This document shows, piece after piece, positions 45,381-62,176 of a stretch of 64,000 nt of DNA. A program made the translations under genes and the position numbers. Each line of letters starts with the position of its first letter. Position 1 is the first letter of the stretch. The stretch spans positions 124,001-188,000 of the forward strand of contig NZ_SZZH01000003.1 of assembly GCF_005298075.1 (NCBI RefSeq), given 5' to 3'. The DNA comes from Nakamurella flava. GTDB lineage: Bacteria; Actinomycetota; Actinomycetes; Mycobacteriales; Nakamurellaceae. Under the pieces are notes generated by a model. It was not told the origin of the DNA, ran no database searches, and saw nothing but the letters and a program-made list of their open reading frames with translations.

Positions 45381-45610
45381 CGCTCACCCGGGCGGGTGGC
45401 CGTCCGATCGTCCCCTTTGACCTGCTCGACATAGCGACATCCGTTGCTCACCAACGGGTGTCATGACAACGACCGACCCGCGTGAAGTCGACCCGTCCGT
45501 GCGGCCCGCTCCTGGCGTGCCGGCGACGGGACGGGGAACCGCGCGCAGTAGAGCCTGCAGTGCCCGTCCGGGGCGGCCCGCCGACCCCACGACACCTCGG
45601 AGGTGCCGTC

Positions 45611-47366: not shown

Positions 47367-47555
47367 GCTTCACAGCGGGCATTTCGGGCGCTCCAGCGCG
47401 CAATTGGTCAGCGCCAGCGGGGTTGAGCAGCGTCGGTGTCCGCGCGATCTGCGACGGCGGGTCGGACGATGATCAGCGCCAGCGGGCTTCGTCGGCGTCA
47501 CGCCCGAGCCCCGACCGCCACCACCCGCAGCAGAAGGGGCAGAGTGGGGCGGGTG

Positions 47556-48887
47556 ATGGATCTGAACCGCATCGCGGCGGCGTTCCGGTCTGGGGAGTCG
47601 TCCCCGACCGAGCACGTGGCCGACGTCCTCGAGCGCCTGACCGCCGACCCGTACAACCTGGTCGTCACCCTCGACGCCGACCGCGCGCTGGCCACCGCGC
47701 GGGAGTTGACCGACGAGTTGGCCGCCGGGCGGGACCGAGGGCCGCTGCACGGGATCGCCCTGGGGGTCAAGGATCTGATCGACGTCGCCGGGCTGCCGTC
47801 CCGGTGCGGATCGAACGTGTTCGCCGACGCCGCCCCCGCCCGCCTCGACGCCCCCGTGGTCGCCCGGCTGCGGGCGGCGGGAGCCGTCGTGGTGGCGAAA
47901 CTGCACACCCAGGAGTTCGCCCACGGCGCCACCGGGGATGTGTCGGCCAGCGGTCCGGCGCACAACCCGCACGACCCCACCCGGATCACCGGCGGGTCGT
48001 CGTCCGGGTCGGCCGGCTCGCTGGCCGCCGGGCATCTGCCCCTGGCGCTGGGCACCGACACCGGCTGTAGCGTCCGGGGTCCCGCCGCGCTCTGCGGGGT
48101 GGTCGGCCTCAAGCCCCGGTACGGCCGGCTGCCGTCGGACGGCATCTTCCCGCTGTCGGAGTCACTGGACCACCCCGGCCTGCTGTCCACCGACGTCGCC
48201 GCCACCGCCACCGCCTGGTCCGTGCTGTCCGGGGAAGGCCCCCGCGAACGACCGGTCGACGTGCGCGGACTGCGGGTCGGCGTCCTCACCGACGACTACT
48301 GGCGGCCGGCCGACCCGGCCATCGCCCCCTGGCCCGGCCGGGCGGTGGACGTGCTGCGCGACAGAGGGGCCGAGGTGATCGAGGTGTCGACGCCGTTCAT
48401 CGACGAGTTCGCCGCCGCCTACCGGCCCATCGTCAGCAACGAGGCCTACGCGACGCACGCCCGGTGGCTGGCCGAACGGCCCGAGGCATACCAGCCGCTG
48501 ACCCGCGAGCGGCTGCTGAGCTTCGCCGACCGGCCGGCCCGCGACTACATCGAGGCGCAGCGGACCCGGCGTCGGTTGTCGGCCGAGTTCACCGCGGCGG
48601 CCGCCGATGTCGACGTCCTGGTGCTGGCCACCACCCGACTGCGGGCCACTCCGATCGGCGCGGCCGAGGTGACGCCAGAGGGCGGGGACGGGGCGCCGGT
48701 GGAGGTGCGGCCGGCACTGCTGGCCCTGAACTCGCCGTTCAACCTGACCGGCTGGCCGGCCGTCAGCATCCCGGCGCCGGTCGACGGGCTGCCGATCGGC
48801 GTGCAGATCGTCGGCGTGCGCCAGGACGAGGCCGGAGTGCTCGACGTGGCCGCGGCGGTCGAAGCCGGCTGGCGGTCGGCGGGTTGA
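47556..48887 (+). CDS. Amidase (amidase signature family)
   Basis: 443 residues. The Ser-cisSer-Lys triad is placed by 'GIALGVKDLIDVAG' (Lys), 'RITGGSSSGSAGSLAAG' (cis-Ser) and 'GTDTGCSVRGPAALCGVVGL' (nucleophile Ser). The family usually has DTGGS; here the residue before the nucleophile is Cys. It hydrolyses an unknown amide. It is too divergent from GatA to be the tRNA amidotransferase, and no gatB/gatC is adjacent. ATG 47556 follows a GGGG-rich ribosome site. Confidence 0.92.
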   Translation: MDLNRIAAAFRSGESSPTEHVADVLERLTADPYNLVVTLDADRALATARELTDELAAGRDRGPLHGIALGVKDLIDVAGLPSRCGSNVFADAAPARLDAPVVARLRAAGAVVVAKLHTQEFAHGATGDVSASGPAHNPHDPTRITGGSSSGSAGSLAAGHLPLALGTDTGCSVRGPAALCGVVGLKPRYGRLPSDGIFPLSESLDHPGLLSTDVAATATAWSVLSGEGPRERPVDVRGLRVGVLTDDYWRPADPAIAPWPGRAVDVLRDRGAEVIEVSTPFIDEFAAAYRPIVSNEAYATHARWLAERPEAYQPLTRERLLSFADRPARDYIEAQRTRRRLSAEFTAAAADVDVLVLATTRLRATPIGAAEVTPEGGDGAPVEVRPALLALNSPFNLTGWPAVSIPAPVDGLPIGVQIVGVRQDEAGVLDVAAAVEAGWRSAG

Positions 48888-49014
48888 TCCGCGAGAGGGC
48901 CAAGGCCGCCACGGTCGCCTGCCGCGCACGTCGCACACGCCGCTGATGGCCGACAAGTGAGCGCCAGCAATATTTTTCGTGGTCATCGATGCGACGATGC
49001 CGCACACTGAGGCT

Positions 49015-49338
49015 ATGTGTGGTCAGTGTCGAGCGCCCGCCCCCCGCAACGACTGGTTCCTCGTCGGCGCGGGACCCGACATCGGGAGCCGTCGCCGGGC
49101 CCGCGAGGAGGCCGCACTGGCGGCCAGCCGGGTCCTGCAGCCATGGCGGATCAGTGTGCGTGCCCCGGCCGCGTCCATGACCTTCGTGATGACGACGGCG
49201 ACCGGGAAGTCCAGAACGGTCGAACATCTCGAGGACCTGGTCGACGCGGCCGAGCGACTGAGCGGCCGCCCTGTCGACCCGATGAGTGCCCCATCCGGCC
49301 CCGCGACCGAGAGCTCCTCTCGGCAGAACGGGCACTGA
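49015..49338 (+). CDS. Small CxxC protein preceding CobW-family GTPase
   Basis: 107 residues from ATG 49015. It opens 'MCGQCRAPAPRNDWFLVGAG' with a C2-x-x-C5 pair that could bind zinc. The middle resembles a small alpha/beta unit ('PWRISVRAPAASMTFVMTTA') and the tail is Ser/Pro-rich. No named family. Its stop is 1 bp from the start of the CobW-like GTPase, so cotranslation is likely; a metal-handling role is inferred from that neighbour. An AT-rich patch (AATATTTTTCG, 48969) marks the probable promoter. Confidence 0.72.
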   Translation: MCGQCRAPAPRNDWFLVGAGPDIGSRRRAREEAALAASRVLQPWRISVRAPAASMTFVMTTATGKSRTVEHLEDLVDAAERLSGRPVDPMSAPSGPATESSSRQNGH

Positions 49339-49339
49339 G

Positions 49340-50302
49340 ATGATCGACCTCACGGTGGTCAGTGGACCGCTCGGCGCCGGCAAGACGACCTGGCTGCTCC
49401 AGCAGGCGGACCTGCTCGAGTGCGATCTGCTCGTCACCAACGACGTCGCCGACGTGTCCATCGACGACTCGATCCTGGCCCCGGAGTCCGCCGGAGCCGG
49501 CCGCCGAACGGTGTGCATCGCGGGTGGATGCGTGTGCTGCACGGCGTGGCCGGATCTTCGGAATACGTTGCTGCAGTGCGTGAATGAGGCCCATGTCGGA
49601 ACGTCTCGGCGTGATCGTCAGGTGTTGCTGGAGGTGTCCGGGGCGGCCGAGCCGGACCAGCTGCTCCGACGGCTGACCGACGACCCGGTGCTCGGAGCCA
49701 ACGTGCGCGTGGCTCGCCTGACCGTCGTGCTCGACGGCTCGGACGCGGTGCGGGGTCTGCGGCACGAGGCCGCTGTCCGCACCCAGGTGTCCGTGGCCGA
49801 CGAGGTGGTCCTCACCCGGGCCGACGTGGTCAGCCCGACGGATCTGCGCCACGCCGCGGGGGTGGTGCGCGGCCTGCGGCCCGATCTGCGTCTCACCGCA
49901 ACCGCCCGGGGGGCCGATCATCCGCTGGGCCCGGTCGTTCCGGAGGTACTGCTGGTCGGCGATGATGTCGACGGGGCGGTCGGTGGCCTGTCGACCCTCG
50001 CGGTCCGCCTCTCCGCCCGCACCCGTTGGGCCGAGTACGCGCTGTGGCTGCACGCGATGACGCGCCGGCACCCGGCCGGACTGGTGCGCTCCAAGGGCTA
50101 CGTCACCACGCCGGCGGGGCGGGCCCTGGTCCAGTCGGTCGGTGCGGCCATCACGGTCGAGCTGGTGGCGACCGCCGCAGTGGACCCGGACAGCCGGTCC
50201 GGACCGACGGACATGACGTACGTCCTCCGCGGGCTGGATCGCGATCAGGTCCGGGCGTCGCTATCGCAGTGGGTGCCGAGCGCTGGGGCGGCCGACGACT
50301 GA
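49340..50302 (+). CDS. CobW/COG0523-family GTPase (metal chaperone)
   Basis: 320 residues. G1 'VVSGPLGAGKTTWLL', the metal motif G-G-C-V-C-C (CxCC), and 'LLEVSGAAEPDQLLRRL' fit COG0523 GTPases. The C-terminal domain has 'RTRWAEYALWLHAMTRRHPA' and 'VRSKGYVTTPAGRALV'. These proteins deliver zinc or another metal to target proteins. Despite the name, the actual CobW role in cobalamin synthesis is not shown, and this gene is 14 kb from the cob genes, next to a CxxC protein, which fits zinc handling better. Confidence 0.88.
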   Translation: MIDLTVVSGPLGAGKTTWLLQQADLLECDLLVTNDVADVSIDDSILAPESAGAGRRTVCIAGGCVCCTAWPDLRNTLLQCVNEAHVGTSRRDRQVLLEVSGAAEPDQLLRRLTDDPVLGANVRVARLTVVLDGSDAVRGLRHEAAVRTQVSVADEVVLTRADVVSPTDLRHAAGVVRGLRPDLRLTATARGADHPLGPVVPEVLLVGDDVDGAVGGLSTLAVRLSARTRWAEYALWLHAMTRRHPAGLVRSKGYVTTPAGRALVQSVGAAITVELVATAAVDPDSRSGPTDMTYVLRGLDRDQVRASLSQWVPSAGAADD

Positions 50303-50343
50303 GGGTCGCGGGACCGGCGGGAGACAAGCCGGTCCAGGGACTC

Positions 50344-51387
50344 TCAGACGTCCGTCGCGTGCCCGTCGTCCGTCAGGCGCCGCGCACCGAGGGTCGATGC
50401 CCGGGCGGACAGGAACGGTTGGAGCAGTTCAGACTCGATCGCCTGGCCCCCGAGCCGGGCGGCAAGGGCCAGCGCCCCGCGCCGGCCCATCTCCACCATG
50501 GGGGAAGCGACCGACGTCAGCGTCACCGGGAGATACCGAGACAGGGGGATGTCGTTGTAGCCGATGACGGCGATGTCCTGCCCGACGCGCCGGCCCAGTT
50601 CACTGGCCGCGCCCATGGCGCCGATCGCCGCGAAGTCGTTGATCGCGAACAGGGCGGTGATCTGTGGATGGGCGGTGAGCAGCCGCCCGGCCGCCTCGTA
50701 GCCACCCTGGGCATCGGCCCCGGACAGGGCGATGTGGCTGCCCGGAACGGCGACCCCGGCCCGTTGGAAGCGGCCGACGAAACCGTGGGTGCGTTCGACG
50801 CACGTGCTGGCGTATTCGTGGCCGGCGATGACGGCGACGTCCCGGTGACCCAGTTCGAGCAGGTGCTCGGCGGCCAGCTCGCCCCCACGGACGTCGTCGG
50901 TCGTCACCGACGGGTGTCCGCGCAGGCGGCGGTTGACCAGGACGTACGGATGGTTCCGCCTTTTAAGCGAGGCCACCAGTTCATCGCCGTCGAGTCGCGC
51001 GTCGCCGATGATGCAGCCCTCGACCCGGCGCGCGAGCAGCTGCTCCATTTGTTCGTGCCGGGACGTGGGCTTGTCACTCGAGGTCTGCACGACCGTGTGC
51101 AGGCCGGCTTCGTGGGCCCCGTCGTCGGCGCCCTCGTAGATCCGCGCCAGCACGTAGTCGGTCACACGCGGGACCAGTACGCCCAGCAGACCGCTGCGCC
51201 GGGTCCGCAGCGCCGTCGCCGCCGGGTCGGGGACGTATCCCATCTGTTCGGCGATACGCCGGATGCGGGCGACGGTGGCGCTTCCGGCACGTGACGGTGG
51301 CTCCCGCAACGAACGGGAGACGGTGGAGACATGCACCCCGGCCCGATCAGCGATCTCCGCCAACGTCACCGAGTGCGGGGCTGACAT
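50344..51387 (-). CDS. LacI-family transcriptional regulator of the catabolic island
   Basis: 347 residues. The N-terminal HTH is 'TLAEIADRAGVHVSTVSRSL' with hinge 'YVPDPAATALRTRRSG'. A periplasmic-binding-like effector domain follows ('GLLGVLVPRVTDYVLARIYE', 'IGYNDIPLSRYLPVTLTSV'). Two identical GCCAATCGTTTGGC operators 4 kb away, at the divergent promoters of the island, are the likely targets. It follows the SDR gene by 67 bp and may belong to the same transcript, giving autoregulation. ATG 51387 has GAGGAG 7 nt upstream. Confidence 0.93.
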   Translation of the reverse strand: MSAPHSVTLAEIADRAGVHVSTVSRSLREPPSRAGSATVARIRRIAEQMGYVPDPAATALRTRRSGLLGVLVPRVTDYVLARIYEGADDGAHEAGLHTVVQTSSDKPTSRHEQMEQLLARRVEGCIIGDARLDGDELVASLKRRNHPYVLVNRRLRGHPSVTTDDVRGGELAAEHLLELGHRDVAVIAGHEYASTCVERTHGFVGRFQRAGVAVPGSHIALSGADAQGGYEAAGRLLTAHPQITALFAINDFAAIGAMGAASELGRRVGQDIAVIGYNDIPLSRYLPVTLTSVASPMVEMGRRGALALAARLGGQAIESELLQPFLSARASTLGARRLTDDGHATDV

Positions 51388-51454
51388 GACTCACTCCTCG
51401 ACGGTCGACTTCAGCGACTGTGCCACGTTCGGCACGCGATTGCCCGCATCACCG

Positions 51455-52282
51455 CTAGATGTCCAGACCCGGCTCGCCGGCGAGCCAACCGCCGTCGACG
51501 GGGAGGATCTGCCCGGTGACCATGGCGGCCGCGTCGCTGAGCAGGAAGGCAACCGCCCCGGCGATGTCCCGCGGCTGCCCCACCCGGCCCAGGGGGATGC
51601 GGCGTTCCGATGCCCGCAGCACCGCCGGGTCCGCCAGCATCGGCGAGGCCATCGGGGTCCAGACGAACGTCGGCGCGACCGCATTGACGCGGATACCGAC
51701 TGGAGCCCAGTCGATGGCCAGGCTCCGGGTCATGGCGGCAACCGCGCCCTTGGTCGCGGTGTAGACGACCTGGTGAGGCAGGGCGGTCAGAGCCGCCTGG
51801 GAGGCGAGATTCACGATCGCGCCGCCGTTCTCGTGCATCAGGCGGTGAGCGGCCTGGCTGACGAAGAGCAACCCCTTGACGTTGATGGCCCACAGTCGGT
51901 CGAGATCGGCCTCGCTGGCCTCCTCGGCCGGCCCGTTCTGGCAGATGACCGCGGCGCAGTTGACCACGCCGTCCAGCCCGCCCATTCCGGCACCGGCCGC
52001 GGCGACCGCACGGTCGACCTCGTCCCGGCGGCTGACATCGGCCGACACGGTGACCGCCGAGCCGTCGAGATCCCCGATCATGGAGGAGGTCTCGTCGAGC
52101 CTGCTTTCATCGAGATCCAGGATCGCGACCCGGGCCCCCAGCGCGGCCAGGCCGACGGCGACACCCTGTCCGATGCCCTGTGCCGCGCCGGTCACCAGCA
52201 CCCGGCGGCCCTCGAGGAGGGCGTCCTGCCGGCCCAGGGGTGCCCCCGGCCCCGCCGGGGACGTACCGCCCTGCTCGTTCAT
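51455..52282 (-). CDS. SDR-family oxidoreductase
   Basis: 275 residues. Cofactor motif 'VTGAAQGIGQG', acid after beta-2 ('ILDLDES', favouring NAD), 'NCAAV', active-site Tyr and Lys in 'VVYTATKGAVAAMTRSLAID', with Ser in 'NLASQAALTA'. It oxidises or reduces a hydroxyl/keto group of the island's substrate. Start overlaps the stop of the upstream hydrolase gene by 4 nt (ATGA). The N-terminal ~20 residues are a Gly/Pro-rich extension. Confidence 0.93.
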   Translation of the reverse strand: MNEQGGTSPAGPGAPLGRQDALLEGRRVLVTGAAQGIGQGVAVGLAALGARVAILDLDESRLDETSSMIGDLDGSAVTVSADVSRRDEVDRAVAAAGAGMGGLDGVVNCAAVICQNGPAEEASEADLDRLWAINVKGLLFVSQAAHRLMHENGGAIVNLASQAALTALPHQVVYTATKGAVAAMTRSLAIDWAPVGIRVNAVAPTFVWTPMASPMLADPAVLRASERRIPLGRVGQPRDIAGAVAFLLSDAAAMVTGQILPVDGGWLAGEPGLDI

Positions 52283-53127
52283 CGGGCCTGCTCCATGGCG
52301 TGGCGGGAGAAGAAGTCCGCGACGACGGAGGCGTGCTCCTCCGTGCTGTCGAACGGAGTCGAATGACCGCCACCCTTGATGACGTGGACCTCGGCGCCGG
52401 GCAGGTTGTCGGCGATCCACTGCTGCCCCGCCCCCTGCGGGCCCTGGTCCCACGGGGTCATGAGGTCCTGGTCCCCACCCAGCACCAGCGCGGGGGAGGA
52501 GATGGCGCGAACGAGGTCCCGCAGATCCATCTCCTGCATGGCCCGGCACGCCGCCACGAACGGTGCGAGCGTGTTGCTGTCGCGCAGGATGGTCTGGACC
52601 TGGTCGACGGCGTCGCGTCCCGCCTCGCTCTCCATGTAGCCGTTGGACAAGGCCTGCCAGGAGATGAGCTCGGCCAGGATCCTGCTCCCGGGGCCGGCGG
52701 GATCGAGTTGCACGATGTCGATCCAGTTCTGGAAGACCAGCCGACCGTTGCGGCCGAGTTTGGACGCCGAGCAGTTGATCACCACGGATTGGGTCCGTTC
52801 CGGGTACAGACCTGCGAACGCCTGGGCGACCATGCCGCCCATCGAGGTGCCGTGCACGTGTGCTCGCTCGATGCCCATCGCGTCCAGCAGTGCGGCGGCG
52901 TCGGCTGCCCACCGCTCGATCGAATACGGGTAGTCGTCGGGACGACTGGAGTCGCCGTATCCCCGCTGGTCGTAGTCGATCACCTGGAACTTCTCGGCCA
53001 GCAGCGGGCTCAGCGGCGCGAAGTTGTAGTGACCGAAACCGGATCCGTGGATCTGCAGGACCGGGTCTCCCTGGCCACTGACCTCTGTCCACAGGTCGGC
53101 GTCGCCGATGCTGATGATTCGAGCCAT
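52279..53127 (-). CDS. Alpha/beta hydrolase
   Basis: 282 residues. 'VLQIHGSGFGHYNFAPLSPL', 'VIDYDQRGYGDSSRPDDYPY' and the nucleophile elbow 'VHGTSMGGMVAQAFAGLYPE' (G-T-S-M-G-G) show the fold. The acid is in 'LVLGGDQDLMTPWDQG' and the histidine in 'VIKGGGHSTPFDS'. It probably cleaves a C-C, ester or lactone bond of the pathway intermediate. ATG 53127 follows GGAGG. It lies third in the minus-strand operon, 21 bp after the asparaginase-like gene. Confidence 0.93.
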   Translation of the reverse strand: MARIISIGDADLWTEVSGQGDPVLQIHGSGFGHYNFAPLSPLLAEKFQVIDYDQRGYGDSSRPDDYPYSIERWAADAAALLDAMGIERAHVHGTSMGGMVAQAFAGLYPERTQSVVINCSASKLGRNGRLVFQNWIDIVQLDPAGPGSRILAELISWQALSNGYMESEAGRDAVDQVQTILRDSNTLAPFVAACRAMQEMDLRDLVRAISSPALVLGGDQDLMTPWDQGPQGAGQQWIADNLPGAEVHVIKGGGHSTPFDSTEEHASVVADFFSRHAMEQAR

Positions 53128-53148
53128 GGTCTTTCAATCCTCCGGTGA

Positions 53149-54171
53149 TCAGTAGTCGTTGTCGAAGAAGGCGGCGATCGCCGCACGGTCGGCCCCGCCC
53201 ATCAGCAGCACCATCAGGGCCAGGCGGGCCTTGAGCCCGTCCAGCGGCCCGGCGGGGATGAGTCCGCGTTTCCAGAGGTCGCTCTCCGAACCGGGGAACC
53301 CGTAGGTGTTCGTGTAGAGATCGCCCGCCCCGGTCCGCGTGGTGACGACGACCGGGACGTCGCGGGCGACCGACTCCAGGAGCGGGACGATCCGGGCCGG
53401 GACGTGCCCGCCGCCGAACGCCTCGACCACCAGTCCGGCCGCCCCGTTCGCCGCGAGGCGGACGAGGCTCCCGTCATCGCCGAGCACCATGCGCACGAGC
53501 GGCACGGTGGGCAGGTCGTCCGCCCCCGCGGGCGGAAGTGGTGCCGAGACCCGCCGGGCACTGAAGGGCAGGCGAACCCGGCCCTCCACGACGTATCCGA
53601 CGGGACCCACCGTCGGCGACTGGAACGTCGACGGGGACGAGCTATGGGTCTTGCGGACGAACCGGGCCGAGTGGACCTCGTCCGCGAAGACGACGAGAAC
53701 GCCCTGACCGGCGGAGTCCGCGGCGGCGGCGACGCGGACGGCGGCCAGCAGGTTGGCCGGTCCGTCGGCGCCGGGGAGCCCGGAGTTGCGCATCGCTCCC
53801 GTCATGGCGACCGGCGTGGTCGTCCGCAGCAGCAGATGCAGGAGGAACGACGTCTCCTCCAGTGTGTCGGTTCCCTGGGTGACGACGATCCCGTCGACGT
53901 CTGCCGCTCGCCGCTCGATGAGCCGGGCCAGTTCGAGGATGTCGACCACCGTGAGATCGCCCGAGGGAAACTGGCGGAACGCCTCGCACTCCAGGCTGGC
54001 CACCTCCTGAAGACCGGGTACCGACGCCACCAACTGCTCGGGGGTCAGGCTCGGGACCGCGTCCCCGCCCCCGGCTGCGGGGACGGAGGCGATGGTGCCG
54101 CCCAGGGAGATCACCAGGATCTCCGGCAGCGGGGCCACCGCGGCCGAGGGCCGCGGGGCCGCTTCGGTCAC
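53149..54171 (-). CDS. Asparaginase-like amidohydrolase
   Basis: 340 residues. The two catalytic threonines of the family are in '[12 protein letters not shown]' and '[20 protein letters not shown]', with the supporting '[11 protein letters not shown]'. C-terminal '[20 protein letters not shown]' fits. It is related to L-asparaginase, but in this operon it may hydrolyse another amide. GTG 54171 overlaps the stop of the NodB-like gene by 4 nt. Confidence 0.9.
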
Positions 54172-55082
54172 GGGTTCTCCTGATCGAACGGGTACTTGGC
54201 GTTGGTCGCGAACGGGAACCGGCGGCGGAAGTCCTCGGCGGTGTTCTCGAACGTCTCGAAGGACACGCCTTCGTGGCCCTGGATGTAGGTCAGCAGGCGC
54301 TCGAGCATCAGCAGCACCTGCGGCCGCCCCGACACGTCGGGGTGGATGGTGATCGGGTAGATCGCGTAGTCGTACTCGCGGTAGACCCAGTCGAACTGGT
54401 CGCGCCAGAGCTGCTCGATGTCGTGGGGATTGACGAAACCGTGGCTGTTCGGGCTCGCCTTGATGAACATCATCGGCGGCAGATCATCGATGTACCAGCT
54501 GAAATTGATCTCGACCAGGTCGATCTCCTGGCCCCGCACCAGCGGCTTCATCCAGTGGTCGGCCGGCTGCGACAGGTCGATCTTGGTCCAGGTGTCGCCG
54601 GTGCGGGCGTAGAACGGCTGGAAATCGTGGAACGCCTGGCTGTGGTCGTACCGGAACCCGTTCTTGAGCAACAGGTCCGTGGTGACCGGAGAGAGCTCGC
54701 ACCACGGGGCGATGTAGCCACGGGGGCGCTGGCCGGAGAACTTCTCGATCAGTTCGATCGATTTGTTGAGGACGTCCTCCTCCTGCTGAGGGCTCATCTG
54801 GATGGGGTTCTCGTGCGAGTAGCCGTGTGCGGCCAGTTCGTGCCCTGCGGCGACGATCTGCTCGATCCGGTGCGGGAACGTCTCGATGGAGTGCCCCGGC
54901 GCGAACCACGTCGTGGTGATGCCGAAGCGCTCGTAGAGCTTGAGCAGGCGGGGGATGCCGACCTCGCCGGCGAACATGCCGCGCTGGACGTCGGCCGGTG
55001 AATCCTCCCCGCCGTACGAGCCCAGCCAGCCCGCCACGGCGTCGATGTCCGCACCGATACAGACCTTGATGTCCTTGCCCAT
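54168..55082 (-). CDS. NodB-fold polysaccharide deacetylase/allantoinase-like hydrolase
   Basis: 304 residues. Metal and base residues are visible: D12 and D14 in 'IGADIDAV' and the zinc motif H86-x3-H90 in '[10 protein letters not shown]'. '[20 protein letters not shown]' and '[20 protein letters not shown]' are typical of the PuuE/HpPgdA-type branch, which acts on small cyclic or N-acyl amides rather than on chitin. There is no signal peptide, so it is cytoplasmic. It is the first gene of the LacI-controlled minus operon; ATG 55082 follows AAGGAGG. Confidence 0.9.
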
Positions 55083-55145
55083 GTTCAGCCTCCTTGATCG
55101 TCGATGACCGGGATTGCCTCCGTGGAGCCGCCGACAACGGCTCTT

Positions 55146-55159
55146 GCCAATCGTTTGGC
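55146..55159. promoter_or_regulatory. LacI-type operator, minus-strand operon
   Basis: GCCAATCGTTTGGC (5-bp arms, LacI-type CG centre) lies 64 bp before the NodB-like start. On the minus strand it follows a promoter with -35 TTGACA (55203-55198), 16-bp spacing and -10 TATTGA, so the operator falls just past the transcription start. An identical copy lies 210 bp away. Confidence 0.85.
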
Positions 55160-55175
55160 TACGGGTTGGGGGCAG

Positions 55176-55203
55176 TCAATAGGTGGCAGCTGCTGATTGT
55201 CAA
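55176..55203 (-). promoter_or_regulatory. Promoter of the deacetylase operon
   Basis: On the minus strand TTGACA (from 55203) and TATTGA are separated by 16 bp. The following sequence carries the LacI-type operator about 15 bp downstream, as expected for a repressed promoter. Confidence 0.6.
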
Positions 55204-55323
55204 CGCCTCAGCAGGCGATGCTCCCTATCGCTGGGATACGGCTGAGGACCTGCTGGATCCCGTCTTTCGCGACATCACGCACGCTGAACTGATGGTCGAC
55301 GCACAGTAGTCGCACTCGGGGTC

Positions 55324-55353
55324 TTGACAATGCGAGCGCATTTCCGCTCAGAT
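55324..55353 (+). promoter_or_regulatory. Promoter of the ABC importer operon
   Basis: TTGACA (55324-55329) and TCAGAT (55348-55353) are separated by 18 bp. The second LacI-type operator begins 2-3 bp after the -10, covering the start of transcription. Confidence 0.6.
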
Positions 55354-55355
55354 GT

Positions 55356-55369
55356 GCCAATCGTTTGGC
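55356..55369. promoter_or_regulatory. LacI-type operator, ABC importer operon
   Basis: GCCAATCGTTTGGC, identical to the copy at 55146, here extended to TGCCAATCGTTTGGCA. It sits immediately after the candidate promoter and 66 bp before the binding-protein ATG. Two operators 210 bp apart, a whole number of helical turns, could support looping by a tetrameric LacI. Confidence 0.85.
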
Positions 55370-55434
55370 AAGGTCGTCATCGACCGGCCGAAGATCCCTT
55401 CCGAGCCTCGACGGCACCGCCACCAGGAGCATCG

Positions 55435-56655
55435 ATGAGCATTCGAGACCACGACCTGCGCATCTCACCGACCTTGTCGGTGAACCCACCCCGCAGGGCG
55501 CGACGAGCGGCGACCGCACTGATCGCCGCCACCGGGCTGGTACTGGCCGGATGCACGTCCACCGGGGAGGCCGGCACCGGTTCCTCGGCGGCGGGCCAGG
55601 GCGTCGATGTCTCCGCCGCGGTCGCTGCGGTCAAGGAGGCTTCGGCGGTCCCGGCCTTCCAGCTGCAGGCCCCGCCGGTCGACATGACCAAGATCGCCGG
55701 CAAGAAGGTCTACGTCATCCCGTTGTCCTCGCAGATCCCGTATGTGACGGCGGTCGATGCCGAGATCAAGTCGGTGGTGGAGCAGCATGGCGCGACCTAC
55801 CTGGAGTTCCCCAACAGCGGGCAGCCGACGGAATGGGCCGCCGGCATCACCCAGGCGATCGCCCAGCAGGCCGATGTGATCATCCTCAGCCAGGGCCCCG
55901 ATCCGAAACTGCTGGTGCCCCAACTGCAACAGGCGAAGGAAGCCGGGATCCCGGTGGTCCTGAGCCACCTGTACCAGGTCGGGGAGGAGCTGCCGTCCGA
56001 GGTCGACGGGCTGATCGCCGCCACCACCAACGTCGACTTCGCCGAGGCCGGTCGGCTGATGGCCGACGCGGCCATCGCCCGCAGTGGCGGGGCGGTCAAC
56101 GCCCTGATCATCACCTCCACCGAGGTCGCGCCCAGCCAGTCGATCTCCGACGCGGTGCAGGCCACCCTCAAGGAACGGTGCCCGGACACCTGCAAGGCCA
56201 CCGTCGAGAACGTGCCGGTCGCCGACTGGGCCACCCGGTTGAGCAGCACGACCCAGACCGCGCTGCAGCGTGACCCCGACATCAACTGGGTCATCCCGCT
56301 CTACGACTCGATGTCCTTGGGTGTCATCTCCGGCATCACCAGCGCCGGCAAGACGACGGGGGTCGATGTCGCTTCCTACAACGGCACTCCGGACATCCTC
56401 AAGCTGATCCAGGACGGCGGCCCGATGAAGGTCGACGTGGGGGAGAGCACCGCCTGGCTGGGCCGGGCGGCGGCGGACCAGGCCTTCCGTCTCCTGGCCG
56501 GCCAGGAACCGATCGCCGGGGGCGACGTCAAGACCCCGCTGCGCATCTTCACCCCGGACAACGTGGGCGAGGCCGGCACCCCGCCCCAGGCGACCTTGGG
56601 CTACGGCGACGCCTACTCCAGCGGATACGACGCGTTGTGGACGAGCGGCCAATGA
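55435..56655 (+). CDS. Ribose-type ABC transporter substrate-binding lipoprotein
   Basis: 406 residues. The signal peptide is preceded by an Arg-rich leader and ends in lipobox LAGC. The mature part is a type-I periplasmic-binding fold (RbsB-like): 'KKVYVIPLSSQIPYVTAVDA', 'QQADVIILSQGPDPKLLVPQ', 'NALIITSTEVAPSQSISDAV' and 'VDVASYNGTPDILKLIQDGG'. It captures the island's substrate outside the membrane. ATG 55435 follows CAGGAG; the stop overlaps the ATPase start (ATGA). Confidence 0.93.
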   Translation: MSIRDHDLRISPTLSVNPPRRARRAATALIAATGLVLAGCTSTGEAGTGSSAAGQGVDVSAAVAAVKEASAVPAFQLQAPPVDMTKIAGKKVYVIPLSSQIPYVTAVDAEIKSVVEQHGATYLEFPNSGQPTEWAAGITQAIAQQADVIILSQGPDPKLLVPQLQQAKEAGIPVVLSHLYQVGEELPSEVDGLIAATTNVDFAEAGRLMADAAIARSGGAVNALIITSTEVAPSQSISDAVQATLKERCPDTCKATVENVPVADWATRLSSTTQTALQRDPDINWVIPLYDSMSLGVISGITSAGKTTGVDVASYNGTPDILKLIQDGGPMKVDVGESTAWLGRAAADQAFRLLAGQEPIAGGDVKTPLRIFTPDNVGEAGTPPQATLGYGDAYSSGYDALWTSGQ

Positions 56656-58244
56656 CCCCGGCGGGGCCGCCGGTGGTCGAGCTACGTTCGGTGAGTAAGA
56701 CCTTCGCCGGCGTTGCCGCACTTCGCGCCGTGGATCTCACCGTGCGAGCCGGCGAAGTCCACGGCCTGCTCGGCCAGAACGGTTGCGGCAAGTCGACTCT
56801 CATCAAGGTGTTGGCCGGGTACCACGCACCCGATGAGGGCAGCGAGGTGCTCGTCCGTGGCGAGGCCGTCACGCTCCCGGCGGCTCCCGGTGACGCGGCA
56901 CGATGGGGATTCACCTTCGTGCACCAGAACCTCGGCCTGGCCGAAGGTCTCACTGTCGCCGAGAACCTGGGCCTGAGTCGGATCGCGACCGGAGCAGCAC
57001 TGCGTCCGCTGGACGCCCGCAAGCTGCGGCGCTGGGCGGCGGAACTGTTGGCCGAGTTCAAGCTGGCCATCTCGCCCGACGAGTTGCTGGACCATCTCGA
57101 CGGGACCGACCGGGCGCTGTTGGCGATCGTCCGGGCGGTGGACCAGCTGCGCGGGCGGGGGCCGGACGCCGGTCCCGGCCTGCTGGTCCTGGACGAGCCG
57201 ACCGTGTTCCTGCCCCGCTCCGGTGTCGACCGCCTCTTCGGGCTGGTCCGCGACGTCGTCGCCACCGGTGCCGCGGTGCTGTTCGTCTCCCACGATCTCG
57301 ACGAGGTGCGCACCGTCACCGACCGTGTCACCGTGCTGCGGGACGGGCAAGTCGTCGCTCAGGCCGTGACGGGGCAGACCACGACCGCCGAGCTCGTCTC
57401 CCTGATCGTCGGCCATGAGGTGGTGCAGGGTCAGCGGGCGGCACCCGACCGGTCGGGTCCCGACCGACTGGTGCTGGAGGGTGCGAGCAGTGGACGTCTC
57501 GCGCCGGTGGATCTGCGGGTGCGCGGCGGCGAGGTCGTCGGGCTGACCGGGTTGATGGGGTCGAGCTACGACGAACTCGTCTATCTGCTGTCCGGTGCCC
57601 GGGGCTCCTTCGCCGGCCGAGTCGCGATCGACGGTGCGTCGGTCCCGGCCTCGCGGTGGACGACCGGTCTGGCCCGGCGGAGCAACATCGCCCTGGTCCC
57701 CGGCGACCGCGCCCGGCTCGGGGCTGCCGGCGAGCTGACCGTGGAAGAGAACGTGACCCTGCCGGTGCTGGACTCCTTCACCCGGCGTGGGCTGCTCGAC
57801 CAGAAGCGTGTCCGGGCCCGTTCGGACGAGCTGGTCGAGGAGTTCGACGTCCGCCCCCGTCGGTCCGACGCCCTGTTCGCCACGCTCAGCGGCGGTAACC
57901 AGCAGAAGGCCGTCCTGGGTAAGTGGCTGCAGACCGAGCCTGCGCTCCTGCTGCTGCACGAGCCGACCCAGGGTGTGGACGTGGGGTCACGGGAAGACAT
58001 CCATGCCCTCATCGGATCGGCAGCCGAGGCCAGCGGCATGGCCGTGCTGTGCGCGAGCACCGATTACAACGAGCTGGCCCGCCTGTGCGACCGGGTGTTG
58101 GTGTTCGCCGATGACCAGGTCATCGATGAGCTGTCAGGCGCCGCCCTCACCGAGGGCGCCATCGCGCGAACCGTGCTGCAGGGCAGCGAGACGACGACCA
58201 GAGGAGAGCAGCGACATGTCCGAGACGGTGCAGACCGTGGCTGA
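56652..58244 (+). CDS. RbsA-type ABC transporter ATPase with atypical sites
   Basis: 530 residues, two fused ABC domains. Domain 1 has Walker A 'GLLGQNGCGKSTLIKVLAGY', Q-loop 'FVHQNLG' and Walker B 'GLLVLDEPTVF', but the signature is weak ('HLDGTDRALLAIVRAV'). Domain 2 lacks a proper Walker A ('GLTGLMGSSYDELV') and its Walker B aspartate is histidine ('LLLLHEPTQGVDVG'), while the signature 'LSGGNQQK' is good. So one composite ATP site is likely active, as in the sugar-importer family. Stop overlaps the permease by 29 bp. Confidence 0.93.
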   Translation: MTPAGPPVVELRSVSKTFAGVAALRAVDLTVRAGEVHGLLGQNGCGKSTLIKVLAGYHAPDEGSEVLVRGEAVTLPAAPGDAARWGFTFVHQNLGLAEGLTVAENLGLSRIATGAALRPLDARKLRRWAAELLAEFKLAISPDELLDHLDGTDRALLAIVRAVDQLRGRGPDAGPGLLVLDEPTVFLPRSGVDRLFGLVRDVVATGAAVLFVSHDLDEVRTVTDRVTVLRDGQVVAQAVTGQTTTAELVSLIVGHEVVQGQRAAPDRSGPDRLVLEGASSGRLAPVDLRVRGGEVVGLTGLMGSSYDELVYLLSGARGSFAGRVAIDGASVPASRWTTGLARRSNIALVPGDRARLGAAGELTVEENVTLPVLDSFTRRGLLDQKRVRARSDELVEEFDVRPRRSDALFATLSGGNQQKAVLGKWLQTEPALLLLHEPTQGVDVGSREDIHALIGSAAEASGMAVLCASTDYNELARLCDRVLVFADDQVIDELSGAALTEGAIARTVLQGSETTTRGEQRHVRDGADRG

Positions 58245-59238
58245 GTCGAAGAGCGCGAACCGGCAAGCGGCGCGTCCACGGGGGATCGTGACGCGGTACG
58301 GCGAGCGCTATGCGCTGCTGATCGCCTGGCTGCTCGTGGCCGTCCTGGTCGCGGTGGCCATCCCCGGGATCTTCCTGCGGACCGACACCCTGCAGACGAT
58401 CTTCGGGACGCAGTCGGTGCTGCTCGTGCTGGCCCTCGGTCTGCTCTTCCCGCTGCTGACGGGACTGTTCGACCTGTCGATCGCCTCGGTACTGACCCTG
58501 AGCGCGATGACCGTCGCCCTGCTCAACGCCCAGCACGGCGTTCCCCTCCCGCTGGCCGTCCTCGCCGGCCTCGGGGTGGGCCTGGTCGTCGGGGCGATCA
58601 ACGCCCTGTTGATCGTGGTGTTCGACCTCGATTCCTTCATCGTCACGCTCGGCACCTCCACCCTGCTGCTCGGAGTGGTCCAGCTGGTGAGCCAGGGACA
58701 GACCGTCAGCGGGGTCGACCCCACCCTGACCCGGTTCGTCACGAGCATCCGCGTCGCCTTCATCTCCCTGTCGTTCTGGGGCGCGCTGCTGCTCTGCGTC
58801 GTCGTCTGGGTGCTGCTGACCCGGACCCCCCTGGGTCGGCGCCTGCTCGTGGTCGGACGCAACCCCGAGGTGGCCAGGCTCAGCGGCCTGAACACCCGGC
58901 GGCTGCGGGCCGGGGCGCTGATCGCCTGCTCGCTGCTGGCCTCGCTGGCCGGTGCGGTGAGCGTCGGCACCCAGGGCGGGGCCGATCCCACCTCCGGGGC
59001 CGCCTTCCTGCTGCCGGCCTTCGCGGCCGTCTATCTCGGCGCGACTGCGGTGACCCCGGGGCGCTTCAACGTCTGGGGCACGTTCACCGCCGTCTACTTC
59101 CTGGTCACCGGGATCACCGGGCTGCAGCTGCTGGGTGTGCCCAATTTCGTCCAGCAGCTGTTCTACGGCGGCGCCCTGGTCATCGCGGTCGGCCTGTCCC
59201 GACTCGCCCGGCGTCGCAGCGTCCGCCCGACCTCCTGA
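58216..59238 (+). CDS. RbsC-type ABC transporter permease
   Basis: 340 residues with eight to ten hydrophobic spans, for instance 'ALLIAWLLVAVLVAVAIPGI', 'VLALGLLFPLLTGLFDLSIA' and 'LAGLGVGLVVGAINALLIVV'. The EAA-like cytoplasmic region is around 'RRLLVVGRNPEVARLSGLNT', characteristic of branched-chain/ribose-type permeases. It should form the homodimeric channel for the substrate captured by the binding protein. ATG 58216 follows GAGGAG inside the ATPase gene. Confidence 0.93.
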   Translation: MSETVQTVAESKSANRQAARPRGIVTRYGERYALLIAWLLVAVLVAVAIPGIFLRTDTLQTIFGTQSVLLVLALGLLFPLLTGLFDLSIASVLTLSAMTVALLNAQHGVPLPLAVLAGLGVGLVVGAINALLIVVFDLDSFIVTLGTSTLLLGVVQLVSQGQTVSGVDPTLTRFVTSIRVAFISLSFWGALLLCVVVWVLLTRTPLGRRLLVVGRNPEVARLSGLNTRRLRAGALIACSLLASLAGAVSVGTQGGADPTSGAAFLLPAFAAVYLGATAVTPGRFNVWGTFTAVYFLVTGITGLQLLGVPNFVQQLFYGGALVIAVGLSRLARRRSVRPTS

Positions 59239-59296
59239 ACACCCCAGCACCGAGAACCCGCCCGCGCCCGGCGTGGGTGAGAAAGGACGGCATCCC

Positions 59297-60061
59297 GTGA
59301 CCGGACGACTCGAGGGGAAGGTTGCGCTCATCACCGGCGCCGCCTCTGGCATCGGCCGACGGACCGCCGAGCGCTTCGCCGACGAGGGTGCGATCGTCGT
59401 GGTGGGCGATCTGGACGAAGCCGGCGCCCTGGCCGCCGCCGAGCACCTGGGGCGGGACGCACTCGGTCTACGGCTCGACGTCACCGACGCCGACTCGGTC
59501 GCCGCGGCAGTCGCCTCCGTCGTCGCCCAGCGGGGACGGCTCGACGTGCTGGTGAACAACGCCGGGGTCACCATCACCGGCGCCGCCCACGATCTGGCCG
59601 AGGACGACTGGGATCGCGAGATGCGGGTCAACGTCAAGAGCGTGTACCTGATGAGCCGCGCGGCCTGGCCCCACCTGGTGGCCAGCAAGGGCAACATCGT
59701 CAACACGGCCTCCATCGCCGCGTTGTGGGCCATCCCCGCTGACGCCGCCTACTGCGCGTCCAAGGCCGCCGTCCTCATGCTGACCAAGTGCATGGCCCTG
59801 GACGGCGCGCGCGACGGGGTGCGCTCCAACTGCGTGTGTCCCGGGTACACCGACACCCCCATGATCCAGGGCTATTTCGCCGATCAGACGGATCCGGCGT
59901 CGGCGCGGACCTTCGCCGAGTCCATCCATCCGCTGGGACGGCTCGGGCAGCCCGATGACATCGCCTCGGCGATGGTGTATCTCGCCTCCGACGACGCGTC
60001 CTGGGTGACGGGCAGCGCGCTGACCGTGGACGGCGGTCTGACGTCCGGTATCTGGGGCTGA
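59297..60061 (+). CDS. SDR-family oxidoreductase
   Basis: 254 residues. '[20 protein letters not shown]', acidic 'VGDLDEA' (NAD-type), '[10 protein letters not shown]', Ser in '[11 protein letters not shown]', Tyr/Lys in '[20 protein letters not shown]' and '[10 protein letters not shown]'. It is 58 bp after the permease gene, with AAAGGA before GTG 59297, so it shares the importer transcript and probably acts on the imported compound, perhaps paired with the second SDR of the divergent operon. A strong hairpin follows the stop. Confidence 0.94.
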
Positions 60062-60075
60062 GCGCGTCGCGGGTC

Positions 60076-60123
60076 GGCCGCGGTCCACGGATGCGGCTGC
60101 GCCGCGCGTCGAGGACCGCGGCC
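60076..60123 (+). terminator. Terminator hairpin of the importer operon
   Basis: GGCCGCGGTCC and its exact complement enclose 26 nt with further GC pairing, starting 15 bp after the SDR stop. No T-run. Confidence 0.65.
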
Positions 60124-60206
60124 GCCGTGCGTGCCGAGAAAGCTCGAGGGCAGAACCACGGCCACACTTCTCGATTCGTGCCGGTCTCGTCTCGTACCGA
60201 CGATGC

Positions 60207-60231
60207 GGGGACCCGTCTCGGCCGGGTCCCC
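60207..60231 (-). terminator. Terminator hairpin of acyl-CoA dehydrogenase gene
   Basis: GGGGACCC pairs with GGGTCCCC across 9 nt, 13 bp beyond the dehydrogenase stop on the minus strand. Confidence 0.6.
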
Positions 60232-60243
60232 GATGGGCCGACG

Positions 60244-61431
60244 TCAGTACGATCGAGGCAGCCCCAGCACCTTGGTGGCGACGAACGCCTTGATCATGTT
60301 GTTGCTCACCGGGGCGACCTGGAACATGCGGGTCTCCCGGAACTTGCGCTCCACGTCGAACCGGTCGACGAAGCCGTAGCCGCCATGGGTGTCCAGGCAG
60401 GTGTTCGCCGCGGCCCAACTCGCTTCCGAGGCCAGGTGTTTGGCCATGTTGGCTTCCGCGCCGCAGGGAAGACCGGACTCGAACAGTCGCGCAGCTTCGT
60501 AGCGCATCATGTCGGCGGCGCGCACCTTCATGTAGGCGTCGGCCAGTGGGAACTGGACGCCCTGGTTGGCGCCGATCCGACGGCCGAACACCTCTCGGGC
60601 GTTGGCGTAGTCCACCGCCCGCTCGATGAACCAGTACCCGTCACCGATCGCCTCGGACGCCAGCAGGATGCGTTCGGCGTTCCAGCCGTCGATGACGTAC
60701 CGGAATCCGTCGTCCACCGTTCCGATGACGTGGTCGGCCGGCACCCGCAGGCCGTCGTAGACCAACGAGTTGGTCGCGTAGTTGAACATGGTGCGGACCT
60801 TGGTGACCTGCAGGGACTCCGGTTGTCCGGCCCGCACCTCCCGCAGGTCGACCAGGAACAGGGTCAGGCCCCGGGTCTTGTCGGTGCCCTTGTCGCTGGT
60901 CCGGGCCAGGACGAGGGCCAGGTCGGACTCGTCGATGCGACTCGTCCAGTTCTTGGCCCCGGTGATGAGGTAGTCGTCCCCGTCCCGGACCGCGGTGGTG
61001 GTGATGCTGGTGGTGTCCGACCCGGCCGACTCCTCGGTGACCGAGAAGGCCTGCAGCCGGAGCTCGCCCCGGGCGATGGCCGGCAGGTAACGGTCCTTGA
61101 GGAACCGGCTGCCGTGCCGCAGCAGAGCGCCCATCGTGTACATCTGCGCGTGACAGGCGGCCGAGTGACCGCCGGATTTGTTGATCTCTTCCATGATCAC
61201 GCTGGCCTTGGTCAGACCCAGGCCCAGCCCGCCGTATTCGGTCGGGATGAGCGCCGACAACAGGCCCGCGGCGGTCAGGGTGTCCACGAACTCCTGTGGA
61301 TAGCGACGGTTCCGGTCGGTCTCTCTCCAGTACTCGTCCGGGAACGCGGCGCACAACCGGCGGACCTTCTCGCGGAGTTCCTCCACGGACCCGTCGGGGT
61401 GCGTCGTCTCGATCTCCGGGTGGTGGGGCAT
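60244..61431 (-). CDS. Acyl-CoA dehydrogenase
   Basis: 395 residues, FAD-dependent family. 'FSVTEESAGSDTTSITTTAV', 'DDYLITGAKNWTSRIDESDL', 'WNAERILLASEAIGDGYWFI' and 'DTHGGYGFVDRFDVERKFRE' are characteristic; the catalytic glutamate position cannot be fixed by eye. It introduces an alpha-beta double bond into an acyl-CoA. It is divergent from a MaoC-CitE-CaiB operon, so its substrate may be a C5 dicarboxylyl-CoA such as methylsuccinyl-CoA. ATG 61431 follows GAAGGAGC. Confidence 0.94.
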   Translation of the reverse strand: MPHHPEIETTHPDGSVEELREKVRRLCAAFPDEYWRETDRNRRYPQEFVDTLTAAGLLSALIPTEYGGLGLGLTKASVIMEEINKSGGHSAACHAQMYTMGALLRHGSRFLKDRYLPAIARGELRLQAFSVTEESAGSDTTSITTTAVRDGDDYLITGAKNWTSRIDESDLALVLARTSDKGTDKTRGLTLFLVDLREVRAGQPESLQVTKVRTMFNYATNSLVYDGLRVPADHVIGTVDDGFRYVIDGWNAERILLASEAIGDGYWFIERAVDYANAREVFGRRIGANQGVQFPLADAYMKVRAADMMRYEAARLFESGLPCGAEANMAKHLASEASWAAANTCLDTHGGYGFVDRFDVERKFRETRMFQVAPVSNNMIKAFVATKVLGLPRSY

Positions 61432-61487
61432 CGTCGCTCCTTCATGCCGGGCTGCCGTCGTCGGCCGCGCTGCTCGGGCTCAGACTA

Positions 61488-61590
61488 ACCAAATATATTC
61501 TGTACGCCAGGGCGGGTGGTTCAGGTCACTGAGAGTTGCATCAAGGCAGTTCAAAGCCCATTCTGGGCCGACATCGCAGAATATTTTCAG
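61488..61590. promoter_or_regulatory. AT-rich divergent promoter region with inverted ATATTCTG motifs
   Basis: AAATATATTCTG (61491-61502) and CAGAATATTTT (61577-61587) are inverted copies of one AT-rich motif in otherwise GC-rich DNA, 82 bp apart, between the dehydrogenase and MaoC starts. They may be binding sites of one regulator controlling both directions, or a pair of promoter -10 regions. Confidence 0.45.
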
Positions 61591-61633
61591 ACGACACCGG
61601 CGCCAGCGGCGGCGACCGGGGCAGGAGGCGGCA

Positions 61634-62176
61634 GTGAGCGAAGCGTCGGAGTCCCGGGTCGTGCCCGGGTGGACGGGGCGGTTGTACGAGGACTTCGCGG
61701 TGGGCGACGTCTACTACCACCCGTTCGGCAAGACGGTCACCGAGACCGACAACCAGTGGTTCACCCTGCTCACCCAGAACGTGGCCAAGACCCACGTGGA
61801 CGCCCATTTCGCCGAGCAGACCGAGTTCGGTCGGCCGCTGGTCAACTCGACGTTTCTCCTGGCCCTGGTCACCGGGCAGTCGACGATCGACCTGTCGATG
61901 AACGTGTTCGCGAACCTCGGCTGGGACGAGGTCCGGATGCCGCATCCGGTCTTCGTCGGGGACACCATCTATTCGCGGTCGAAGGTCCTCGAACTCCGGG
62001 CCTCGGCGTCCCGTCCGGGCGTGGGTCTGGTGACGGTGGCCAGCGAGGGTTTCAACCAGGACGGCGCGATCGTGATCAGTTACCGGCGCACCTTCATGGT
62101 GTACCGCCAGGGCCACCTCCCGGCGGTCGACGACGTCCGGCCCGACGAGTCCAGCCTTCCGGACGTGGCTCGATGA
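61634..62176 (+). CDS. MaoC-like enoyl-CoA hydratase
   Basis: 180 residues of hot-dog fold. 'LYEDFAVGDVYYHPFGKTVT', 'NQWFTLLTQNVAKTHVDAHF' with the catalytic Asp/His region, and 'GRPLVNSTFLLALVTGQ' match MaoC proteins of the mesaconyl/itaconyl-CoA hydratase group. It adds water to an unsaturated acyl-CoA, giving a hydroxyacyl-CoA for the CitE-like lyase whose gene overlaps its stop (ATGA). GTG 61634 follows AGGAGG. Confidence 0.92.
   Translation: MSEASESRVVPGWTGRLYEDFAVGDVYYHPFGKTVTETDNQWFTLLTQNVAKTHVDAHFAEQTEFGRPLVNSTFLLALVTGQSTIDLSMNVFANLGWDEVRMPHPVFVGDTIYSRSKVLELRASASRPGVGLVTVASEGFNQDGAIVISYRRTFMVYRQGHLPAVDDVRPDESSLPDVAR

Follow-up and report, generated by a model that had tools for sequence, protein, structure and literature searches.

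What compound is broken down by the products of the divergent gene cluster at positions 50344–60061 of a 64,000-nucleotide stretch of the Nakamurella flava genome, and how is the cluster controlled? The stretch analyzed (contig NZ_SZZH01000003.1, positions 124,001 to 188,000; hereafter the window) had been described in an initial annotation as carrying a LacI-controlled catabolic island, in which a ribose-type importer and a short-chain dehydrogenase (SDR) are divergent from a NodB-like hydrolase, an asparaginase-like amidohydrolase, an alpha/beta hydrolase, another SDR, and a LacI regulator. Pfam assignments and open reading frames (ORFs) with translations confirmed all nine genes with the families as first described, and within either arm, genes overlap or are separated by at most ∼70 bp. 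We propose that the products of the island, under repression by LacI, break down a small cyclic imide, or a hydroxylactam or ester precursor of one, with a probability of roughly 60% for imide opening, deamidation of the half-amide, and release of LacI taken jointly. Its chemistry is predicted from sequence throughout.

The NodB-fold hydrolase belongs to the HP0310/HxnM clade

The sole Pfam assignment of the NodB-fold hydrolase is polysaccharide deacetylase. Its best match among solved structures is Helicobacter pylori HP0310 (3qbu; E = 6e-134), with which it aligns without gaps over 290 residues at 65% identity, above the >60% full-length identity that we used to delimit the clade. The metal- and water-binding residues of HP0310 (D12, D14, H86, H90, and H247) and W127 are conserved at matching positions. 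HP0310 is also the closest structural homolog of Aspergillus nidulans HxnM, which is 64% identical to the cyclic imide hydrolase of Pseudomonas putida (PMC9304392). By sequence, the N. flava enzyme is a member of an HP0310/HxnM clade, to which HxnM and the P. putida enzyme AAY98498 are linked through published identities. HxnM is assigned the ring opening of 3-hydroxypiperidine-2,6-dione, after the SDR HxnW, which makes the imide, and before the amidase HxnN; an old yellow enzyme (OYE), HxnT, acts earlier in the fungal route (PMC9304392). Membership in this clade makes a cyclic imide the better guess for the substrate, and we infer that the enzyme is a cyclic imide hydrolase.

In the report on HP0310, the protein was inactive on GlcNAc, GlcNAc3, N-acetyl polyamines and amines, N-acetyl dipeptides, and allantoin, and it has no open groove for a polysaccharide; a small-molecule substrate was suggested (PMC3084791). 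Because of the inactivity on the N-acetyl amines and dipeptides tested, only part of the substrate range first suggested holds: a cyclic amide is likely whereas an N-acyl amide is unlikely. The allantoinase branch, to which the enzyme had initially been assigned, was abandoned in favor of the HP0310/HxnM clade, given a score of 80 bits against the PuuE model (NCBIfam TIGR03212; cutoff 424.6) and the inactivity of HP0310 on allantoin. An identity as a NodB chitooligosaccharide deacetylase was likewise rejected (TIGR04243, 28.1 bits against a cutoff of 240), again with the reported inactivity of HP0310.

These data also bear on the use of N-acetyl amino sugars or peptidoglycan fragments, in which the NodB-fold enzyme would deacetylate an imported sugar and the SDRs would oxidize it. 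The polysaccharide deacetylase domain, the ribose-type importer, and the deacetylase activity on crude peptidoglycan cited for HP0310 (PMC3084791) are consistent with such a pathway. Yet the hydrolase reaches 28 of 240 bits with the NodB model, HP0310 does not act on GlcNAc or GlcNAc3, no sugar kinase, isomerase, or glycosidase is among the Pfam matches of the island, and the asparaginase would be left unexplained. We regard amino sugar use as very improbable.

For the cyclic imide pathway, the asparaginase-family protein, the sole match of its kind in the genome, would make the second cut. The Pfam superfamily domains are present, and the score against the type II L-asparaginase model (TIGR00520) is 191 bits, below the cutoff of 314.3. 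The protein keeps the catalytic Thr of GGTI, the TDT motif, and the Lys expected of a type II L-asparaginase. Two successive C–N cuts, as proposed at the outset, remain the best reading of the genes. The alpha/beta hydrolase scores 140 bits against the 3-oxoadipate enol-lactonase model (cutoff 256), and its best PDB match is Est1.

A conserved operator accompanies LacI relatives

The same 14-bp sequence, GCCAATCGTTTGGC, precedes both arms, 64 and 66 positions from the two divergent start codons, and no further exact copy was found in the 4.84-Mb genome. Upstream of each copy, a TTGAC-like hexamer was noted by eye; a sigma-70 promoter scan of 55060–55460 found nothing.

Conservation of the operator was examined in 96 foreign loci (designated by L numbers) with a relative of the NodB-fold hydrolase gene, hereafter an imidase-like gene. 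The sample comprises 79 loci obtained from the best 80 of 591 relatives of the enzyme, 15 further loci, L107, and L093; L107 and L043 are apparently one place, and the sets of 95 and 96 loci thus count one locus twice. LacI genes with ≥40% identity to that of the window are present in 14 of the 96: identity is 61–67% in L012–L015, 53% in L052, 42% in L054 and L061, and 41–53% in L146, L150, L152, L154, L155, L156, and L158. Twelve of the 14 have the strict core CAA[AT]CG[AT]TTG, at 16 sites in total, versus 1 of the 82 others. The window, L012–L014, and L052 were the source from which this core was derived by eye, and L015 was also inspected; the fair test is thus limited to the nine LacI loci outside this set. 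A strict site is present in eight of the nine (L054, L061, L146, L150, L152, L154, L156, and L158). An earlier count over 35 chosen loci, now superseded, gave 16 sites where 0.27 were expected, with 11 of 13 loci with LacI (window included) and none of 22 without it having a site.

By their coordinates, the sites of L052, L054, L146, L150, L152, L154, L156, and L158 are intergenic, with LacI on one side and the gene divergent from it on the other. A gene for a small protein described below begins 17 bp after the end of a site in L013 and 19 bp after the end of one in L014, and L015 has GCAAAGGATTGC twice, one mismatch from the core. Across loci with a LacI relative, the site is a palindrome with a central CG, the form by which we recognize a LacI operator. 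Control of the two divergent arms by LacI via a shared operator, predicted from the identical 14-bp copies in the initial annotation, is thus supported by a core that is conserved together with LacI relatives.

A recurrent core and a variable set of partners

The initial annotation called for a search for the same gene set across actinobacteria and would have been refuted by genomes in which the genes fail to co-occur. LacI, asparaginase-family, and imidase-like genes do recur together, but the full nine-gene set is in none of the 95 loci compared. The gene set varies between loci, and these three genes are its recurrent core. Of the 79 loci, 20 have an asparaginase-family gene and 26 an amidase-signature gene at most 5 kb from the imidase-like gene, and 45 have either. 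The HP0310/HxnM clade is represented in 17 of 394 genomes of the host's class, host counted. Among the other 16 loci, 11 have an asparaginase gene within 6 kb, seven have a LacI relative of 41–53% identity, and two more have a LacI at 27%.

The closest relatives of the hydrolase (86–89% identity; L012–L015) are accompanied by genes for the small protein, a GTPase, asparaginase, an MFS transporter, and LacI, with SDR genes in addition in L013; neither the importer nor the alpha/beta hydrolase was seen in these four loci. In L155, L156, and L158, LacI is divergent from asparaginase, imidase-like, MFS, and two SDR genes in this order, which L052 shares, its asparaginase being a 34% relative. Nearest in plan is L054 (Rhizobiales). 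Its asparaginase and LacI genes are divergent from a CUT2 importer of three genes (binding protein, ATPase, and permease), after which come, in order, genes for an SDR-like match (29–34%), the imidase-like enzyme, the small protein, and the GTPase. Between the arms are two sites, one strict and one with a single mismatch. The L054 importer is not close to that of the window (ATPase ∼35%). In L152 and L154, the imidase-like gene is followed by an NCS1 permease gene, and these two loci and L146 have an OYE gene nearby; we count both arrangements toward a cyclic imide pathway.

Several arrangements at related loci stand apart from this plan. In L018 and L035, an arylmalonate decarboxylase (Amdase) family gene, perhaps a maleate isomerase, precedes the imidase-like and asparaginase genes (Pfam on L018). 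The row of MFS-like, Amdase-family, imidase-like, and asparaginase genes (L018:7411–11982; L035:2553 to ∼7150) fits a route from maleimide through maleamate and maleate to fumarate. In Sneathiella (L061:16082–20880), LacI and asparaginase genes are divergent from a transporter judged by eye to be of the TRAP type, an operator lies between them, and the imidase-like, small-protein, and GTPase genes are ∼8 kb distant. Genes for biotin carboxylase and LamB/YcsF (PxpA-like) are near imidase-like and asparaginase genes at L155:3561–5948 (Pfam) and L044:8976–11489 (cluster match), and a YcsF-like start was noted by eye at L054:12968. Cryobacterium ruanii has a second NodB-cluster gene (L016:672–1553) ∼8.4 kb from the first.

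The importer arm

Of 394 genomes in the host's class, nine, host counted, have relatives of the binding protein (E ≤ 1e-55), with 34–46% identity in the eight others. Nine foreign loci with such relatives were compared. Hydantoinase-type genes are in L107, L108, and L111, amidase genes in L106 and L107, and an imidase-like gene in L107; none of these hydrolases was found by the queries used in L104, L105, L109, L110, and L112. CUT2 relatives are therefore near hydantoinase-, amidase-, or imidase-type genes in four of nine loci versus none of 13 control regions. The control regions surround the other 19 BPD_transp_2 matches of the host genome, and by the same test they have no such hydrolase, GTPase, or CoA-transferase genes. 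Relatives of SDR1 (44–46%) adjoin relatives of SDR2 (43–49%) near CUT2 relatives in L108, L110, and L111, and the island may represent a core regulon that was joined to a module of importer and SDR pair. A single substrate cannot be named because, among PDB entries, the best match to the binding protein scores 49.5 bits.

In L108, L110, and L111, a cluster recurs with a CUT2 importer, an alcohol dehydrogenase, an OYE, two SDRs, and a PEP-mutase/ICL-like gene. L108 (Pfam) and L111 (by eye) also have hydantoinase and isochorismatase-type genes, resembling another cyclic-amide pathway.

The hydantoinase-type genes raise the question of cyclic ureide catabolism, with a hydantoin- or dihydropyrimidine-like substrate whose ring would be opened by the NodB-fold enzyme and whose product would lose an amide to the asparaginase-family enzyme. 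PuuE is a close fold relative of HP0310 (PMC3084791), 8 of 79 loci have hydantoinase-type genes at most 5 kb from the imidase-like gene, such genes are also near the CUT2 relatives named above, and an NCS1 permease gene follows the imidase-like gene in L152 and L154 (Pfam on L154; L152 is 93% identical). On the other hand, the hydrolase reaches 80 of 424.6 bits with the PuuE model, HP0310 does not act on allantoin, and no carbamoylase is among the Pfam matches of the island. Asparaginases, moreover, cut carboxamides and are not known to cut ureas. A ureide pathway is consequently an unlikely explanation.

A small MCxxC protein and a COG0523 GTPase as putative metal suppliers

Two genes absent from the gene set first described lie directly left of LacI. 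One encodes a 107-residue protein and the other a GTPase whose CobW domain and CVCC motif, an instance of CxCC, identify it as a COG0523 member; it is the only match in the genome for its protein at E ≤ 0.001. The small protein has no Pfam match at E ≤ 0.1, nor do four homologs, and no NCBIfam match was found for it and three homologs. Its AF2 model has a mean pLDDT of 82, and a structure search of the PDB with this model gave no match at E ≤ 0.001.

The association of the two genes with imidase-like genes is widespread. By a model built with the window protein among its sequences, 55 of the 79 loci have the small protein and 54 have the pair at most 10 kb from the imidase-like gene. The small-protein gene in each of the 54 ends at most 200 bp from the GTPase gene on the same strand. 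Among 21 genomes reached via chosen loci, 14 have one small-protein match each, and none was found in the seven whose loci lack it. Across 298 genomes of the family of Pseudomonas cichorii (G411; L066), the small protein and the imidase-like gene are in the same 27, 3.2–4.1 kb apart, and neither was found alone; shared descent and the shallowness of this first look limit the weight of the co-occurrence. In the host's class, a small-protein match is in 2 of 394 genomes, both among the 17 with an imidase-like gene, and many imidase-like genes there therefore seem to do without it. The candidates scored per genome were 12 in the host's class, 16 in the Pseudomonas family, and up to 150 in the 21 genomes, so that absences are not proof. 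Small-protein-like ORFs in L156 and L158 are insecure, the former having passed 0.001 in one of two runs and the latter in neither. The pair stands beside HP0310-clade genes in several phyla.

From gene association, we propose that the small protein and the GTPase are a metal-insertion pair for the imidase-like enzyme. A broader version, at somewhat less than even odds, is that ∼100-residue MCxxC...W proteins and COG0523 GTPases are dedicated metal-insertion pairs for NodB-fold imidases across phyla, and that the island, with its LacI control, exemplifies a cyclic-imide pathway that is both widespread in bacteria and undescribed and that has an asparaginase-fold half-amidase. Positions 48000–64000 of the window and the adjoining locus L092 have no additional site within one mismatch of the core. 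With no such site ahead of the pair, its membership in the regulon of the window rests on the relatives.

Weighing a cyclic imide pathway

In the mechanism that we propose, LacI without ligand would occupy both operators and ligand would free them, and the CUT2 system would import the substrate. The SDRs and the alpha/beta hydrolase would trim it, for example by converting a hydroxylactam to the imide in the manner of HxnW. The NodB-fold enzyme would hydrolyze the imide ring to a half-amide, and the asparaginase-family enzyme would release ammonia, leaving a dicarboxylate. Metal for the NodB-fold enzyme would be supplied by the COG0523 GTPase and the MCxxC protein.

Several observations weigh against this proposal. 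Among the enzymes, the HxnM step was derived from metabolites of mutants (PMC9304392), and besides the crude deacetylase activity cited for HP0310, its homologs are reported to adjoin polyamine importers and D-Ala-D-Ala peptidases (PMC3084791). The SDRs and the alpha/beta hydrolase carry no assigned step; when these enzymes act, and to what end, is far less certain than ring opening, deamidation, and release of LacI. Among gene neighborhoods, neither amidase type is within 5 kb in 34 of 79 loci, while the hydantoinase-type genes are there in eight. OYE genes are absent from the island and rare near imidase-like genes, within 6 kb in 3 of 16 host-class loci (L146, L152, and L154) and 3 of 79 loci. 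Among operators, L036 has one strict site without a LacI relative, and no strict core was found in L155 or L015 although LacI is present. For the importer, the control regions mix importer types. Finally, the missing equivalent of Q59 of the Escherichia coli asparaginase was dropped as a sign of a substrate without an alpha-amino group because the PDB asparaginases 9d91 and 7c91 lack it too.

Flanking genes and the limits of the unit

The left limit of the unit is possibly 49015, which takes in the small protein and the GTPase (table 1). Farther left, an amidase-signature amidase is a possible accessory half-amidase and a candidate member of the unit. A flotillin/SPFH-like ORF, judged by eye, is at 45482–47203.

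On the right, a CoA module, also a candidate member, may consume the released dicarboxylate. As an extension of the cyclic imide pathway, a methylsuccinate-, mesaconate-, or itaconate-like dicarboxylate would be activated by CaiB and degraded via an acyl-CoA dehydrogenase (ACAD), MaoC, and CitE. MaoC fits the mesaconyl-CoA hydratase model, and L056, L081, and L090 have related ACAD and/or MaoC genes (56–65%) no more than 10 kb from the imidase-like gene. Matches at this level are, however, confined to these 3 of the 95 loci. In 60244–64000 and L092, the operator core was not found even with one mismatch allowed, and a GntR-like gene follows CaiB, so the module is probably under other control; we doubt that it belongs to the pathway.

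Table 1. Features of the island and its flanks in the window
Feature	Position	Strand	Basis and remarks
Amidase-signature amidase, possible accessory half-amidase	47436–48887	+	PF01425, 298 bits; start perhaps ∼47556 by eye
Small protein, 107 residues, MCGQC...DW (family label c2)	49015–49338	+	HMM without the window protein, 57 bits, E = 8e-17
COG0523/CobW G3E GTPase, CVCC motif, putative metallochaperone	49340–50302	+	PF02492, 82 bits; PF07683, 30 bits
LacI-family repressor	50344–51387	−	PF00356, PF13377
SDR1	51455–52282	−	PF13561, 232 bits; refined start 52282
Alpha/beta hydrolase, PcaD/Est1-like	52279–53127	−	PF00561
Asparaginase-family amidohydrolase, proposed half-amidase	53149–54171	−	PF00710, 194 bits; PF17763, 77 bits
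NodB-fold hydrolase, HP0310/HxnM clade, proposed cyclic imide hydrolase	54168–55082	−	Refined start 55082
LacI operator 1	55146–55159		GCCAATCGTTTGGC; precedes imidase-like arm
LacI operator 2	55356–55369		GCCAATCGTTTGGC; precedes importer arm
CUT2-type substrate-binding lipoprotein	55435–56655	+	PF13407, 103 bits; refined start 55435
CUT2 double ATPase	56652–58244	+	PF00005, two stretches; refined start 56652
CUT2 permease	58216–59238	+	PF02653; refined start 58216
SDR2	59297–60061	+	PF13561, 228 bits; refined start 59297
ACAD	60244–61431	−	Pfam
MaoC	61634–62176	+	Pfam; matches mesaconyl-CoA hydratase model
CitE-like lyase	from ∼62173, module to 63060	+	By eye
CaiB CoA-transferase, then GntR-like gene	Beyond the window, L092:1–2952		Pfam (CaiB); by eye (GntR-like)

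Comparison with known systems

The literature search, which covered the gene set as well as imidase clusters in bacteria, returned only two fungal papers of relevance, and an earlier notice of the small-protein/GTPase pair is possible. The initial view that no described pathway has this set stands insofar as none was found, but the logic of SDR, imidase, and amidase is already described in fungi (PMC9304392), and the superfamily of each enzyme is known. Three elements are new as far as the search reaches, namely the LacI regulon and its footprint, the partner enzyme of asparaginase fold, and the association with the small protein and GTPase. If correct, our proposal would give a function to a large clade usually labeled polysaccharide deacetylase, HP0310 included, provide a bacterial counterpart of the fungal imide steps, point to a client of an orphan COG0523 group, and name a protein family unmatched in Pfam and NCBIfam. 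The paired operators and conserved motif make the regulon directly testable.

The importer shares its three-gene architecture and Pfam domains with the CUT2 sugar importers RbsABC and YtfQRT. Unlike these, its binding protein, ATPase, and permease are below the cutoff of every NCBIfam model listed (for the ATPase, the best 25 of 185). The GTPase has CobW domains and a CxCC motif in common with the COG0523 metallochaperones ZigA, Nha3, and CobW (PMC2770081 and PMC9164220), but it is below all NCBIfam cutoffs matched and is paired with the unnamed MCxxC protein and an imidase-like gene. HP0310/HpPgdA has the same metal and catalytic residues as the NodB-fold hydrolase, yet is named a peptidoglycan deacetylase and differs in the genomic company of its homologs (PMC3084791). 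The P. putida YZ-26 imidase AAY98498, cited in PMC9304392 and PMC8478523, is related to the hydrolase via the published identity of HxnM.

The closest parallel is the HxnW–HxnM–HxnN series of nicotinate breakdown in A. nidulans, which, like the pathway proposed for the island, combines an SDR, an HP0310-related imidase, and an amidase (PMC9304392). HxnT precedes this series, and OYE genes are likewise near the imidase-like gene in L146, L152, and L154; no OYE of the Hxn-type lower nicotinate pathway is among the Pfam matches of the island genes, the part of the genome searched for it. HxnN is a FAAH-like amidase, whereas the island has an asparaginase fold, with an amidase-signature enzyme farther left at the locus, and the island adds LacI control and ABC import of a predicted substrate.

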